Notes under the pieces: generated by a model
The model's input: only the letters and a program-made list of their open reading frames with translations
What the model was told of the DNA's origin: nothing
The model's database searches: none
Part shown: positions 15,542-26,108 of the stretch, piece after piece
How positions within the stretch are numbered: the stretch's first letter is position 1
Layout of the letters: every line of letters begins with the position of its first letter
DNA from: Novosphingobium sp.
Lineage (GTDB): Bacteria; Pseudomonadota; Alphaproteobacteria; Sphingomonadales; Sphingomonadaceae
DNA: 64,000 nucleotides
Direction: 5' to 3'
Assembly (NCBI RefSeq): GCF_027489515.1
Contig: NZ_JAIXZS010000100.1
Span: 1-64,000, forward strand
Position numbers and translations under genes: made by a program

Positions 15542-16136
15542 GGCGCTCGATGCGCTGCTCCAGCGGATCCGCGCCTGCAGCGTCTGCGCGCCGCATCTGC
15601 CGCTGGGGCCCCGGCCGATCGTGCAGGCGGCACCCGGCGCCGCCATCCTGATCATCGGGCAGGCACCCGGCACCGCGGTCCATGCCTCGGGCATTCCCTG
15701 GGACGATCCCAGCGGAGACCGCCTGCGCGAATGGACAGGGCTCGACCGCGCGACGTTCTATGATCCGGGCAAGATCGCGCAGATGCCGATGGGCTTCTGC
15801 TATCCCGGCAAGGTTCCGGCCAAGGGCTCCGGCAGCGGCGGCGATGCTCCGCCCCGCCGCGAATGTGCGCCGTTGTGGCACGAACCGCTCAGGGCGCAGC
15901 TTGTCGCAGTACGGCTGACATTGCTGGTCGGCCAATATGCGCAGGCGACTTATGCGCCGGGGCGCAAGACAACCCTGACCGAGCGCGTCCGCGCAGCGGG
16001 AGCGAACCCGGCCGAACCGTTCGCCCTGCCCCATCCCAGTTGGCGCAGCACCATGTGGATGCGCCGCAATCCATGGTTCGAGGCAGACGTGCTACCGCTG
16101 CTTCGCGTGCGTGTGCGCGAGGCCCTGCGCGATTAG
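15531..16136 (+). CDS. Uracil-DNA glycosylase family protein
   Basis: ILIIGQAPGTAVHASGIPWDDPSGDRLREW, C-terminal LPHPSWRS. Confidence 0.85.
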   Translation: MEREALDALLQRIRACSVCAPHLPLGPRPIVQAAPGAAILIIGQAPGTAVHASGIPWDDPSGDRLREWTGLDRATFYDPGKIAQMPMGFCYPGKVPAKGSGSGGDAPPRRECAPLWHEPLRAQLVAVRLTLLVGQYAQATYAPGRKTTLTERVRAAGANPAEPFALPHPSWRSTMWMRRNPWFEADVLPLLRVRVREALRD

Positions 16137-16873
16137 CCTACGGCGGCGATCATGCGCTCGCCAAGCCACCGTCCGAGCAGCGTGCCGGCGGTGGTGACCG
16201 CCGCTTCTTCGCCGAGCGAGGCCGCCAGCCGTTCGCACACCGCAGCAAAGCCTTGCCCGGCGGCCGACCACGCGAGCACATCGCGTTCGTGCGCCTCGGC
16301 ACGGCGGAACACCGGCTCAAGGCCTTGCCGCCAGACCAGCAGCGCTGTGCCGCGCTCGGCCATTTCGGGGCCCGGCGGGGTTTCGCCGGTCGCGAGCGCC
16401 TGCCAGATCGCATCGGCGTTGGTGGCGATCGGCAGCACAAGCAGCGAAGGCACCGCGCGGATCACGGCGGTTTCCCAGTCGGCCACAGCCAGCGCTTCGG
16501 GGGCAAGCGGCTCGGCATCCGGGCTGACGAAGACCTGGCCGACGGTCCAGTCGATCAGCGCGATCTCGGCAACTTCGGGATCATCGGGCCAGAGCGTCGC
16601 GATGAAATCGGTGAAGTCCTCGCCATAGGCATCAAGCGTCCAGCTCGAGGGCGGGCGCGCATCGATATAGCGCGCCGCGGCCGCCTCGAACGCTTCGTCA
16701 CCCAGCCACAGCACAAGGCGCTGGAAGGTCTCGGCGAGGCTGGAGACCAGCGCGGTGCGGTAGTTGTTCTGATAGACCAAAGTGCCCGGCCCGCCGCCGA
16801 GCGCGGCGGCGGCGCTGTCCTCGCCGGTTACCAGCCAGTCGCGGAAATCGCGTTGCAGGTTAAGGAGGCTCAT
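16133..16873 (-). CDS. bufC: HvfC/BufC-like DUF2063 protein, putative MNIO partner/substrate-recruiting protein
   Basis: N-terminal LQRDFRDWLV...VYQNNYRTALVSSLAETFQRLVLWLGDEAF typical of DUF2063; 4-nt overlap with the MNIO gene. Confidence 0.85.
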   Translation of the reverse strand: MSLLNLQRDFRDWLVTGEDSAAAALGGGPGTLVYQNNYRTALVSSLAETFQRLVLWLGDEAFEAAAARYIDARPPSSWTLDAYGEDFTDFIATLWPDDPEVAEIALIDWTVGQVFVSPDAEPLAPEALAVADWETAVIRAVPSLLVLPIATNADAIWQALATGETPPGPEMAERGTALLVWRQGLEPVFRRAEAHERDVLAWSAAGQGFAAVCERLAASLGEEAAVTTAGTLLGRWLGERMIAAVG

Positions 16874-17694
16874 GCCGCGATCCTTTCATCGGCGGCGATA
16901 CCGCGCGCGATGTCCAGTTCGGCGCAGAGCTCCTCAAGCTCGGGGATATTGTCGTCGCGCTCGATCATCGTCGGCACAGGGCCGGCCAGCGCCACTGCGG
17001 CGCGATAGAGCGCCCAGACTTCCTCCGGCACCGGCTGGTCGTGCGTGTCGATCAGGAGGTGCTCGCCTTGAACATGCCCAGCGAGATGGATCTGCCCGAC
17101 CGCGTGCATCGGAATACCGGCAAGATAATCGGCGGCGGCAAAGCCGTGGTTCACCGCGCTGACATGGATGTTGTTGACATCGAGCAGCAAGCCGCAGCCG
17201 GTGCGCTTCGTCATCTCCGCGAGGAATTGCCATTCGGTCATCGCACCGGGAAAGGCGATGTAACTCGAGGGATTTTCGAGCAGCATGCGGCGGCCCAGCG
17301 CCTCTTGCGCGCGGTCGATATTGCGGCAGACCACATCCAGCGCTTCCTCGGTATAGGGCAGCGGCAACAGGTCGTGCGAATTGAAGCCGTCTATCCGGGT
17401 CCAGCACAAGTGGTCCGAGACCACTGCGGGCTCCATCATGTCGACAAGGCGGCGAAGCTCCTTGAGGTAATCGTCCCTGAGGCCATCGGCCGAGCCGATC
17501 GAAAGCGAGACGCCGTGGAGCGCGAGGGGATAGTTGCGGCGCGCCTTCATCAGCGTATCGAGCGGCTTGCCGCCCGGGATCATGAAGTTTTCCGAGATCA
17601 CCTCGATGAAATCGACGGGCGCGGTGCCCTCGATATAGGACCGGTAGTGCGGCCGGCGCATGCCGAGGCCAAAGCCGGTGAGGTGTTCGCTCAT
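16870..17694 (-). CDS. bufB: MNIO-family (DUF692, BufB/HvfB-type) multinuclear iron oxidative enzyme
   Basis: Conserved motifs HGVSLSIG, VSDHLCW, LENPSSY, LDVNNIHVS, HLAGH, DTHD. Confidence 0.93.
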   Translation of the reverse strand: MSEHLTGFGLGMRRPHYRSYIEGTAPVDFIEVISENFMIPGGKPLDTLMKARRNYPLALHGVSLSIGSADGLRDDYLKELRRLVDMMEPAVVSDHLCWTRIDGFNSHDLLPLPYTEEALDVVCRNIDRAQEALGRRMLLENPSSYIAFPGAMTEWQFLAEMTKRTGCGLLLDVNNIHVSAVNHGFAAADYLAGIPMHAVGQIHLAGHVQGEHLLIDTHDQPVPEEVWALYRAAVALAGPVPTMIERDDNIPELEELCAELDIARGIAADERIAA

Positions 17695-17845: not shown

Positions 17846-18115
17846 TTACTTGGGTTCGGTCAGGCTGCCGCCCTGCGCGGCGCAGGCGGCCTTGGTCAGC
17901 GCCTTGAAGCCCTGGCCCTTGCATTCGTTCTGGCCCTTGCAGCTGTGGGTGCCGGCGGCGCAGTCCGAGGTGCCCTTGCAGGTGTTCACGCCGTAGCAGT
18001 GGACAACTTCGGCGGACTTCGCCTTGGCGATCGCCGGGGCGGGGGCGACTGCCATGGCGGCAGCGATGAGGGCGGCGTTGGCAGCGATGGCGAGGCCGGT
18101 CTTGAGGGTGCTCAT
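17846..18115 (-). CDS. bufA2: Bufferin-type precursor peptide, six-Cys class (BufA2-like)
   Basis: 89 aa; signal peptide then HCYGVNTCKGTSDCAAGTHSCKGQNECKGQGFKALTKAACAAQGG; adjacent to bufB/bufC. Confidence 0.88.
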   Translation of the reverse strand: MSTLKTGLAIAANAALIAAAMAVAPAPAIAKAKSAEVVHCYGVNTCKGTSDCAAGTHSCKGQNECKGQGFKALTKAACAAQGGSLTEPK

Positions 18116-18155
18116 GGGTTTTCTCCGAATGGTGCGCCGGGATGGCATGGCTCTA

Positions 18156-18181
18156 TTCGGATGCACCCACAGGCCGGTTAC
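18156..18181 (-). promoter_or_regulatory. Candidate SigF-type ECF promoter upstream of the six-Cys precursor
   Basis: Minus strand TGTAACC GGCCTGTGGGTGCATC CGAAT: GTAACC-N16-CGAA, same as at 19445. Confidence 0.75.
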
Positions 18182-18220
18182 AGCCCACACACCCTTTTTT
18201 GCGCTGACCAAGGATCGCGC

Positions 18221-19348
18221 TTAGGCCCGATTGCGCATCAGCCATTCGCGAAACACGGTGAGGCCCTCCGGCAGATTGCTGCGACCGAAGCCGATGCGGA
18301 AATGGTCCTGCGGCACCGGGCCAAGCTCGGAATGATAGATGCTCGAGGGGAGCAGCAGCACCCCGGTTTCCTCGACCAGCCGCTCGGTGAAGCGCTCGAC
18401 GCCGTCCTCGCCCTTGTAGCGGATGAAGGCGACGCAGCTGCCATCGGGGCGGCGCCAGTCGAACAGGTGCGGGAAATCGGCGAAGAAGCTGTCGAGCAGA
18501 CCGAGGTTGCGGTGCGCCAGATCGCGGTTGCGCCCGACGATCGCCTCGCGCGCCTTGAGCGCGATTTCGGCGAACAGTTCGGACGGCGCCGAATTGCAGA
18601 TCGAAAGGTAGTGCTTGTAGCGCTCGCAAGTCTGCAGGAACGCGCGGTCCTGGCAGGCGAGCCAGCCGATGCGCAGGCCGGGCAAGCCATAGCTCTTCGA
18701 CATGACATTGAGCGACACGCCGCGTTCGTAGACATCGGCCACCTGCGGCACGCGCGCATCGCTGCGGTGCTCGATCAGGCGGTAGACTTCATCGCTGAAC
18801 AGCCAGATCCCGCGTTCGCGGCAGAGCTCGATCAGCCCGGCGAAGGTTTCCTGCGAGGGGATCGCGCCGGTGGGGTTGTTGGGGAAGTTGATCGAGATGA
18901 GCTTCGTGTTGGGCCGCAGCGCCGCGCGCACGGCATCGAGATCGAGCGCCCAGTTCGCGTTCTCGTCGAGCGCAACCCCGGTGACCGCGCAGATCGAGAG
19001 CGGGATCGTCTCGGCCGACTGATAATTGGGTGTGATCACGATGCAGTGGTCCGCAGGCGTGAGCAGGACCTGCATGGCGACATAGATGCCCTCTTGCGCG
19101 CCCGCGAAGCACAGGAGCTGGTCCTCGTGGATCGTCTCGTATGTCTTGGCGATTTCGTGCAGCAGCGGCTCCGCGCCGAAGGTCTTTGTATAGCCGAGGT
19201 GAAGGTTGTCGAACCGTTCGCGATCAGCCGGCGAGGCATGGGCGAGCAATTGCGAAACCGTCATGCTCTGCGCGTCGGATGCGGTCAGATGATACTTCGC
19301 GGCGAATTCCCACTTCGAGAAGTATACCTCCAGCGCAAAGTTCCGCAC
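18221..19348 (-). CDS. PLP-dependent class I/II aminotransferase
   Basis: NFPNNPTGAIPS, SDEVY, SKSYGLPGLRIGW PLP-lysine motif. Confidence 0.9.
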   Translation of the reverse strand: MRNFALEVYFSKWEFAAKYHLTASDAQSMTVSQLLAHASPADRERFDNLHLGYTKTFGAEPLLHEIAKTYETIHEDQLLCFAGAQEGIYVAMQVLLTPADHCIVITPNYQSAETIPLSICAVTGVALDENANWALDLDAVRAALRPNTKLISINFPNNPTGAIPSQETFAGLIELCRERGIWLFSDEVYRLIEHRSDARVPQVADVYERGVSLNVMSKSYGLPGLRIGWLACQDRAFLQTCERYKHYLSICNSAPSELFAEIALKAREAIVGRNRDLAHRNLGLLDSFFADFPHLFDWRRPDGSCVAFIRYKGEDGVERFTERLVEETGVLLLPSSIYHSELGPVPQDHFRIGFGRSNLPEGLTVFREWLMRNRA

Positions 19349-19444
19349 GGGCCGATTGTCCTTTCAACACGGTGATTTGTTCGGCGCCTCCCTAGGATCT
19401 GTAGCCCGCGGGGTCCAGCCGCGCGGAAAAAATGCTGCGCCCCT

Positions 19445-19470
19445 GTAACCGCGATTGTGCAGGCGGCGAA
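19445..19470 (+). promoter_or_regulatory. Candidate SigF-type ECF promoter upstream of the DUF2282 precursor
   Basis: TGTAACC GCGATTGTGCAGGCGG CGAA: GTAACC-N16-CGAA. Confidence 0.75.
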
Positions 19471-19592
19471 CTGTTCAACGTGGCCGGCGCGAACACTTCC
19501 GGACACGGGCCAAAGGCGGCAAACCGCGCGCCCGGCCTCTGATGATCCTCGTTTCCAACCCTGTGATTCAACCGCTTTTGAAGGAATTCGTC

Positions 19593-19865
19593 ATGAAGAT
19601 TGCTGCAACCGCTTTCGCTGCCTCGATCGCTCTCGGCCTTGCTGCCGGTGCCGCACACGCCGCCGATGCCAAGCCCGCCATGGAAAAGTGCTACGGCGTC
19701 GCCAAGGCCGGCAAGAACGAGTGCGCCGCAGGCGCGGGCACCAGCTGCGCCGGTACCTCGAAGGTCGATTATCAGGGCAACGCCTGGACGCTGGTCAAGG
19801 CCGGCACCTGCACCTCGATCAAGACGCCCAAGGGCAACGGCTCGCTCACGCCCAAGGCGCACTGA
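19593..19865 (+). CDS. bufA1: Bufferin-type precursor peptide, four-Cys DUF2282 class (BufA1-like)
   Basis: 90 aa; signal peptide then [45 protein letters not shown] aaggaa. Confidence 0.92.
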
Positions 19866-19924: not shown

Positions 19925-20365
19925 ATGACCGCTCTCGTATCCGTCTATAACCGGCTGGCCGAGCTGACCGGGCGACTGCTGCCCGAATCCCTGCTGCTGC
20001 TGGCGGCGCGGCTTGGCATCGCAGCGGTGTTCTTCCAGTCAGGGCGAACCAAGGTCGAAGGGTTGCTGACGATCACCGACAGCACCTACTACCTGTTCGA
20101 AACCGACTACAAACTGCCGTTCGTGCCCCCGCATCTGGCCGCCCACATGGCGACCTATTCGGAGCACCTCTTTCCGATCCTGCTGTTCCTCGGCCTCGGC
20201 ACGCGCTTCGGCGCGCTGGGCCTCCTCGGCATGACCACCGTGATCGAGGTCTTCGTCTATCCCGATGCCTGGCCGACGCACCTGAGCTGGGCGGCACTTC
20301 TCCTGCCGCTCATCGCCAAGGGCGGTGGAGCACTCTCGCTCGACCGTCTGCTGCGCCGGGGCTGA
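19925..20365 (+). CDS. DoxX family membrane protein, bufferin-locus associated
   Basis: [24 protein letters not shown] ... [20 protein letters not shown]; directly follows the DUF2282 gene. Confidence 0.9.
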
Positions 20366-20540: not shown

Positions 20541-21209
20541 ATGCCCCCCGATCGAGACGATCCCGGCATCGATCAGACGATCGCGGCGCTGGTTGGCGAT
20601 CTGTCGCCGGTGGTGCCGGTGCGCGTGTGGCGCGGCGTTGCAGCAGGGCTTCTCCTGACCGGGCTGGCTGTGCTGGCCGTGTGGCTGATCCTGGGTCTGC
20701 GCGCCGACGTACTTGCCCTTCATCCGGCGCCCGTAATGATCGCACGGGGCGCGATCCTGCTTGCGGGCGGGCTTGCCATGCTGGTCGCGGCCTTGCGCGC
20801 CGGTGTTCCGGGCCGCGCCGATGGCGGCGCGGCGCTTGTCGGCACCCTGCTCCTTGGCCTGCTGCCGATCGGCCTGATGGGCCTGCTGATGAGCAGTATC
20901 ATGGCCGGCAAGCGCATGCCGTTCGAAGAAGCCACGCCCTTTGACATCGCCCGCTGCTTTGCCGTCGCGCTGGCGACGGCGCTGCTGGTGGGGGCCGGCC
21001 TCGTGATGTGGCTGCGCCGCGCGGCGCCCACCGATCTCGCCCGTTCGGGCTGGCTGACCGGCTGGGCAGCCGCCGCGCTCGGCACGTTCGCCTATAGCCT
21101 GTTCTGTCCCTCGGGCACGATGGCCTTTGCGGCCGTCGTCTATCCTGCGGCGATGCTGCTTGCAGCCACGGTCATCCGCCTCGCGGTGCCGCCACTGCTG
21201 CGCTGGTAG
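20541..21209 (+). CDS. nrsF: NrsF/DUF1109-type membrane anti-sigma factor
   Basis: 222 aa, ~6 TM segments, IARCFAVALAT and YSLFCPSGTMAF cysteines; start trimmed to MPPDRDD. Confidence 0.85.
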   Translation: MPPDRDDPGIDQTIAALVGDLSPVVPVRVWRGVAAGLLLTGLAVLAVWLILGLRADVLALHPAPVMIARGAILLAGGLAMLVAALRAGVPGRADGGAALVGTLLLGLLPIGLMGLLMSSIMAGKRMPFEEATPFDIARCFAVALATALLVGAGLVMWLRRAAPTDLARSGWLTGWAAAALGTFAYSLFCPSGTMAFAAVVYPAAMLLAATVIRLAVPPLLRW

Positions 21210-22987: not shown

Positions 22988-23014
22988 GTAACCAACATAT
23001 GATCTATCCACGAA
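22988..23014 (+). promoter_or_regulatory. Weaker SigF-like motif (N17 spacer) upstream of LysR
   Basis: TGTAACC AACATATGATCTATCCA CGAA. Confidence 0.4.
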
Positions 23015-23983: not shown

Positions 23984-23986
23984 GTT

Positions 23987-24012
23987 GTAACGATCCCGCC
24001 GCGCGCCGCGAA
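23987..24012 (+). promoter_or_regulatory. Candidate SigF-type promoter upstream of the NDH-2-like gene
   Basis: TGTAACG ATCCCGCCGCGCGCCG CGAA: GTAACG-N16-CGAA. Confidence 0.6.
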
Positions 24013-25411: not shown

Positions 25412-25523
25412 TGACTTAACCCCACTCATTCCCGGCATGCATTGATAATATAACCGCTTGATGCGTGTTCGCCTCGGCGCGGCTCGGGCACTGTCAGTGC
25501 ATCGAGAGGTTTTGGAGGAAAGC

Positions 25524-26108
25524 ATGGCAAGCCAACTGGAGACCGCCCGGCACGCCGCACATGGCCCGCGCAAGAGCGCCGGCTTCGACTGGGAGGGGGC
25601 CATGGCCGCGAGCCTCGCCGGTGATGCCGCGGCGTACCGCCGCCTGCTGGAAGAGGCCGGCCGCTGGCTCCGCCGCTACTTTGCCCGCCGCCTTTCCCCC
25701 GAAATGATCGACGATGCGGTGCAGGAAGCGCTCACCGCGCTTCACCTCAAGCGCGCAACGTTCGAGCCGGGGCGTCCGTTCCTGCCCTGGCTTGCCGCGA
25801 TTGCCCGCTTCAAGGGTGTGGATTGCCTGCGCAGCGCCGGGCGCAACCGCGCCGAGGAACTCGACGAGGGCCTGCATGGTGTGCCCAGCCACGAAAGCGC
25901 TTCGCTCAGCGGGATCGTGATGGCCGGGCTGTTCGACCGCCTGCGCCGCCCGCAGGCCGATGCGATCCGGCTGGTCAAGCTGCAGGGCTTCTCGGTGCGC
26001 GAGGCTGCGGCGATGACCGGGCAGTCCGAAGCGCTGGTCAAGGTCAACATCCACCGTGGGCTTGCCGCGCTCAAGTCTTTCTTCGGCGAGGGCGATTTCG
26101 CCTTGTGA
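25524..26108 (+). CDS. ECF-type RNA polymerase sigma factor (SigF-like)
   Basis: Region 2 DDAVQEALTALHLKRATFEPGRPFLPWLAAIARFKGVDCLR; region 4 VKLQGFSVREAAAMTGQSEALVKVNIHRGLAALK; SD ggagga. Confidence 0.9.
   Translation: MASQLETARHAAHGPRKSAGFDWEGAMAASLAGDAAAYRRLLEEAGRWLRRYFARRLSPEMIDDAVQEALTALHLKRATFEPGRPFLPWLAAIARFKGVDCLRSAGRNRAEELDEGLHGVPSHESASLSGIVMAGLFDRLRRPQADAIRLVKLQGFSVREAAAMTGQSEALVKVNIHRGLAALKSFFGEGDFAL

Follow-up and report, generated by a model that had tools for sequence, protein, structure and literature searches.

Two bufferin operons share one promoter-like sequence

In the Novosphingobium stretch analysed here (the window, 64,000 nucleotides), two genes for bufferin precursors lie on opposite strands, separated by an aminotransferase gene, and a preliminary description had noted an identical GTAACC-N16-CGAA sequence upstream of each. 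Are these sequences promoters, and would a single ECF sigma factor read both? Both sites are present exactly as described: for bufA2 the minus strand at 18181-18156 reads GTAACC-GGCCTGTGGGTGCATC-CGAA, and for bufA1 the plus strand at 19445-19470 reads GTAACC-GCGATTGTGCAGGCGG-CGAA, in each case with a T just before. A third N16 site, starting with GTAACG (23987-24012, plus strand), is a detail that had been missed. The predicted promoters are:

18156..18182, minus strand: ECF16/SigF-type promoter of bufA2-bufB-bufC, TGTAACC-N16-CGAA
19444..19470, plus strand: ECF16/SigF-type promoter of bufA1-doxX-nrsF, TGTAACC-N16-CGAA, kept in sister loci with a divergent spacer
23986..24012, plus strand: ECF16/SigF-type promoter before an NDH-2 gene and the ECF sigma gene downstream of it, TGTAACG-N16-CGAA

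The match to the Caulobacter SigF consensus is correct: GTAACC-N16-CGAA is the published SigF-binding sequence in Caulobacter (PMC3511200), and tGTAACc-N16-CGAA is the consensus of ECF group 16 (PMC3420878). The sites have the tGTAACc -35 box, the CGAA -10 box and the 16-nt spacer of an ECF16 (SigF-type) promoter, and stand upstream of the starts of SigF-type target genes. The distance from motif to start is 40 nt for bufA2, 122 nt for bufA1 and 31 nt for the NDH-2 gene, and these distances are conserved in relatives. The bufA2 promoter falls between the aminotransferase stop (18221) and the bufA2 start (18115), all on the minus strand. The bufferin genes and their neighbours are:

17846..18115, minus strand: bufA2, 6-Cys periplasmic bufferin precursor (NCBIfam NF050166 BufA2, 101 bits against a cut-off of 60)
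16870..17694, minus strand: bufB, MNIO bufferin maturase (NF050167 above cut-off; PF05114)
16133..16873, minus strand: bufC, DUF2063 partner protein (PF09836)
19593..19865, plus strand: bufA1, putative DUF2282 bufferin precursor (PF10048, 85 bits)
19925..20365, plus strand: DoxX-family protein (PF07681)

BufA2 is assigned as a bufferin by its score above the NF050166 cut-off and by the adjacent MNIO maturase gene. The bufA1 product matches DUF2282 (PF10048) and gave no NCBIfam hit. No MNIO gene lies in the bufA1 operon itself, so modification of BufA1 would fall to bufB of the neighbouring operon.

Position, spacer and conservation, not number, identify the sites

As regards frequency, GTAACC-N15-18-CGAA has 3 matches in the window; dinucleotide-shuffled sequences have 0.07 on average, and none of them reached 3. 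The preliminary description had proposed a genome-wide scan, and here the raw counts gave no support, whereas position, fixed spacer and conservation did. Genome-wide (4.29 Mb), GTAACC-N15-18-CGAA occurs 16 times against 37 for the reversed-pattern control, and GTAACS-N16-CGWA 15 times against 29; the motif is thus not over-represented in the genome, and the evidence has to come from those three properties rather than from the number of matches. Genome totals no higher than the control, together with matches inside genes, are what one would expect if both sites were a chance coincidence or background k-mers. That explanation has next to no probability, however, given the excess in the window and the near-universal conservation, with a fixed spacer, at orthologous promoters in dozens of genomes. 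Matches in the coding regions of GAPDH (L012) and an NTF2-like ORF (L063) were set aside. A GTAACC-N17-CGAA sequence upstream of a LysR gene (22988-23014) was also rejected as a further promoter; the sister genome has no N16 copy and no shared N17 copy of it, and it is probably a chance match.

We compared 80 bufB-containing loci, 48 of them alphaproteobacterial by title (one of the 48 is labelled Actinobacteria yet is Sphingomonas-like, and one, cut by a contig end, was excluded). With spacers of 15-17 allowed in the search before bufA2, TGTAAC[CGT]-N16-CG[AT]A was found in 45 of the 47 evaluable alphaproteobacterial loci, about 40 nt upstream and always with a spacer of 16. The two exceptions carry TGGAACC-N16-CGTA, with one mismatch, in Rhizorhabdus-type genomes in which no NrsF was found. 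None of the 31 evaluable beta- and gammaproteobacterial loci has the motif before bufA2, several of them in genomes with an NrsF-family gene. Across Sphingomonadaceae the motif is conserved at the bufA1, bufA2 and often sigF promoters. Sister loci retain the boxes while their spacers diverge, and in the promoter alignment high information is confined to the boxes and to an element in the leader downstream of them, with a weak A/T bias upstream of the -35 box. Sharing in place with the sister genome was seen for 9 of 15 N16 sites (one of the nine inside a coding region) against 1 of 11 N17 sites (one-sided Fisher p=0.011). The motif also stands at bufferin promoters of Novosphingobium taihuense (L101) and Sphingomonas sp. 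SRS2 (L113), although no NrsF was found in their genome records.

In some lineages CGTA replaces CGAA, often at several promoters of a locus; in the L030-L043 group (e.g. L035, L038, L039) it does so at the sigF, bufA2 and bufA1 promoters of one locus. This suggests that sigma specificity and promoters drift jointly.

Conserved boxes could also be operators of a transcription factor, such as a metal-responsive regulator, which in principle could bind two separated half-sites. We regard this as very improbable, since the half-sites are neither inverted nor direct repeats of each other, the boxes equal an ECF16 consensus that is backed by 5' RACE and lacZ fusions in Caulobacter and by primer extension in Bradyrhizobium, and the sites with one mismatch in the -35 box fall in two genomes that lack NrsF.

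A single ECF16-like sigma factor and a single NrsF

The window also encodes a candidate sigma factor and its anti-sigma factor:

25458..26108, plus strand: ECF16/SigF-type sigma factor (PF04542 and PF08281; start uncertain, TTG 25458 or ATG 25524)
20541..21209, plus strand: NrsF anti-sigma factor (PF06532, 92.6 bits against a cut-off of 26.8), the only NrsF in the genome
24044..25411, plus strand: NDH-2-type NADH dehydrogenase (PF07992 Pyr_redox_2), first gene after the third promoter

The 25458-26108 sigma, which we term ECF16-like from its sequence, is as much as 55% identical to sigmas whose genes adjoin nrsF in relatives, with E-values as low as 1e-51. The NDH-2-type product has a weak NDH2_C match, below the cut-off of that model, and its gene is assumed to be co-transcribed with the sigma gene across a gap of 46-112 nt. 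The TGTAACG-N16-CGAA site before the NDH-2 gene is kept, with different spacers, in L097, L098 and L101; in L099 the sigma gene has neither a motif of its own nor a preceding NDH-2 gene.

We are highly confident that this single ECF16 sigma factor, a Caulobacter SigF ortholog encoded 6 kb from the bufferin promoters, reads the motifs as -35 (GTAACC) and -10 (CGAA) elements. The proposal of the preliminary description that one ECF sigma governs both precursors is supported by the presence of one ECF16-like sigma and one NrsF and by the conservation of the motif across Sphingomonadaceae. The promoters might be real and yet be read by another ECF sigma of the genome, which encodes 12 proteins with Sigma70 region 2 and, being 94.6% complete, could have a further ECF16 among its missing genes. 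This too is improbable, if slightly less so than the operator explanation: of the 12 proteins, the 25458 sigma is the only one similar to NrsF-linked sigmas (the genome's next own sigma matches it at E=0.003 only), and a conserved motif stands before the gene upstream of it.

The sigma and NrsF genes do not show the usual adjacency, which is customary for ECF16 sigmas but does not strictly define them; they are 4.2 kb apart in separate operons, each of which starts at a predicted promoter of the motif type. Many relatives carry sigF next to nrsF, with a divergent bufA1 and a downstream bufA2 on either side, each with the motif. We take the split to be a rearrangement, because sister loci share the layout and the genome has just one copy of each gene. 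NrsF residues C139 and C189 are conserved in 40 of 40 aligned sequences.

Upon the observed sites, their conservation, the single sigma/anti-sigma pair and the gene contexts we place a mechanism in which sigma binding, NrsF release, inducers and function are inferred from work on Caulobacter, Bradyrhizobium and Brucella. In unstressed cells the sigma factor would be bound by NrsF, a membrane protein of six helices that has two conserved cysteines, and it would be set free when metals or oxidants stress the envelope. The free sigma would then drive transcription of bufA2BC, bufA1-doxX-nrsF and ndh2-sigF and, at other places in the genome, of msrB, msrA, dsbD and a cytochrome b561/YedY-like pair. 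Expression of ndh2-sigF would give positive feedback via the sigma, and that of bufA1-doxX-nrsF negative feedback via NrsF, with sigma and anti-sigma divided between two feedback operons. As a result, bufferins would chelate excess periplasmic copper, and oxidised methionines and thiols would be repaired.

The predicted regulon extends to methionine sulfoxide repair

Beyond the bufferin operons, the distribution of the motif points to msrB, msrA, the cytochrome b561/YedY-like pair and dsbD as regulon members. An N16 site lies about 10 nt before the start of a gene for an exported, Tat-type MsrB (L007/L067, G000:C25:1829-1854), and likewise in the sister genome (L207). Upstream of exported MsrB genes the motif was found for 16 of 32 copies in genomes with NrsF, against 1 of 13 in genomes lacking it (p=0.015), and in none of the shuffles; about half of the exported MsrB genes in NrsF-containing genomes thus have no motif. 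In three genomes (L267, G000:C26; L273; L274) the motif is conserved before a gene for a cytochrome b561-type protein, followed by one for a Tat-type YedY-like (Oxidored_molyb) molybdopterin enzyme. N16 sites also precede genes for an exported MsrA, DsbD, a DUF1223 protein and a TPP enzyme; the inclusion of MsrA (with its long leader), the TPP enzyme and the DUF1223 protein is tentative. Judged from these sites, metal chelation and envelope methionine-sulfoxide repair would be under one switch.

Comparison with known systems

The nearest known system is SigF-NrsF of Caulobacter crescentus, which has the same boxes and spacer and likewise includes bufferin operons and an Msr system (PMC3511200, PMC8224329). 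There the SigF regulon comprises both bufferin operons, MsrPQ, sigF and nrsF, is induced by copper, and a sigF mutant is copper-sensitive (PMC8224329); NrsF keeps the sigma membrane-bound until metal stress sets it free (PMC3511200). Unlike in Caulobacter, sigma and anti-sigma genes are here in different operons, NrsF with bufA1-doxX and the sigma with NDH-2, and the promoter is found at MsrB, MsrA, DsbD and the cytochrome b561/YedY-like pair. SigF control of both bufferin operons and of an Msr enzyme is already known from Caulobacter; new are the host lineage, the split layout, the wider predicted regulon and the conserved bufA2 and bufA1 leader hairpins described below. The link between SigF and bufferins is thereby extended from Caulobacter to Sphingomonadaceae, and the near-invariant promoter makes the regulon predictable by sequence.

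EcfF-OsrA of Bradyrhizobium japonicum also pairs an ECF16 sigma with a DUF1109 anti-sigma factor with conserved cysteines (C129/C179), and its regulon, as predicted here, includes methionine sulfoxide reductases (MsrA/B) and a DsbD-like protein (PMC3420878). It differs in its consensus, GTAAC(g,a)-N14-15-(c,t)CG(t,a), and in that no link to bufferins is reported; the words DUF2282 and DUF692 are absent from that article (PMC3420878). BcrS-AbcS of Brucella melitensis shares the ECF16 sigma and the NrsF-family anti-sigma, which there control a periplasmic Msr system (MsrQP-like), but its trigger is hypochlorite and its targets include a methionine-rich peptide, and the word DUF2282 is absent from its description (PMC8315932). 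A survey of Buf1 and Buf2 clusters describes the same precursor, MNIO and DUF2063 genes, and reports sigma/NrsF genes in Buf1 but not in Buf2 clusters (PMC12452194). In relatives examined here, by contrast, the bufA2 promoter follows directly after nrsF, and Buf2 promoters carry the SigF motif. In alphaproteobacteria Buf2 clusters, though reported without sigma genes, are predicted members of the same regulon.

Conserved predicted hairpins in the leaders

Downstream of the boxes, both bufferin leaders contain a predicted hairpin:

18136..18146, minus strand: short hairpin GCCATCCCGGC near the predicted mRNA 5' end, bufA2 leader
19479..19507, plus strand: longer hairpin, arms CGTGGCCGG and CCGGACACG with one mismatch, bufA1 leader

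Transcription by Bradyrhizobium EcfF starts 6 bp after the -10 box (PMC3420878), which would place the hairpins only a few nucleotides from the mRNA 5' end. GCC-N3-8-GGC occurs within 40 nt in 44 of 46 bufA2 leaders, against 7% of shuffles, and GCC-N5/6-GGC almost always begins 8-9 nt after the -10 box. After deduplication of the promoters, GCC-N4-6-GGC was present in 53/57 bufA2, 9/53 bufA1 and 2/47 sigF leaders. The bufA1 leaders have a longer stem, from about 9 nt after CGAA, with varied arm sequences; a stem score of at least 7 is reached by 54% of them, against 25% of shuffles, and by 5% of sigF leaders. Mean leader folding energy is only slightly lower than in shuffles, so the case for the hairpins rests on position: the bases most likely to pair are at +9 to +11 in bufA2 leaders and at +10 to +18 in bufA1 leaders. 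As to covariation, the core pairs of bufA2 are invariant, and the bufA1 stems were not aligned by MAFFT. No Rfam match was found in 18000-19700.

Stem-loops at the 5' end can stabilise mRNAs. That the conserved hairpins shield the bufferin mRNAs from decay, or provide a second means of control, is a reading to which we give slightly less than an even chance; the leader element may also be an operator for a second regulator. The hairpins suggest a further, putative layer of control, and shielding, if true, would let one ECF sigma yield far more chelating peptide than regulator. The two bufA2 leaders without the GCC-N3-8-GGC element, both from Qipengyuania, fold into another hairpin at a similar position.
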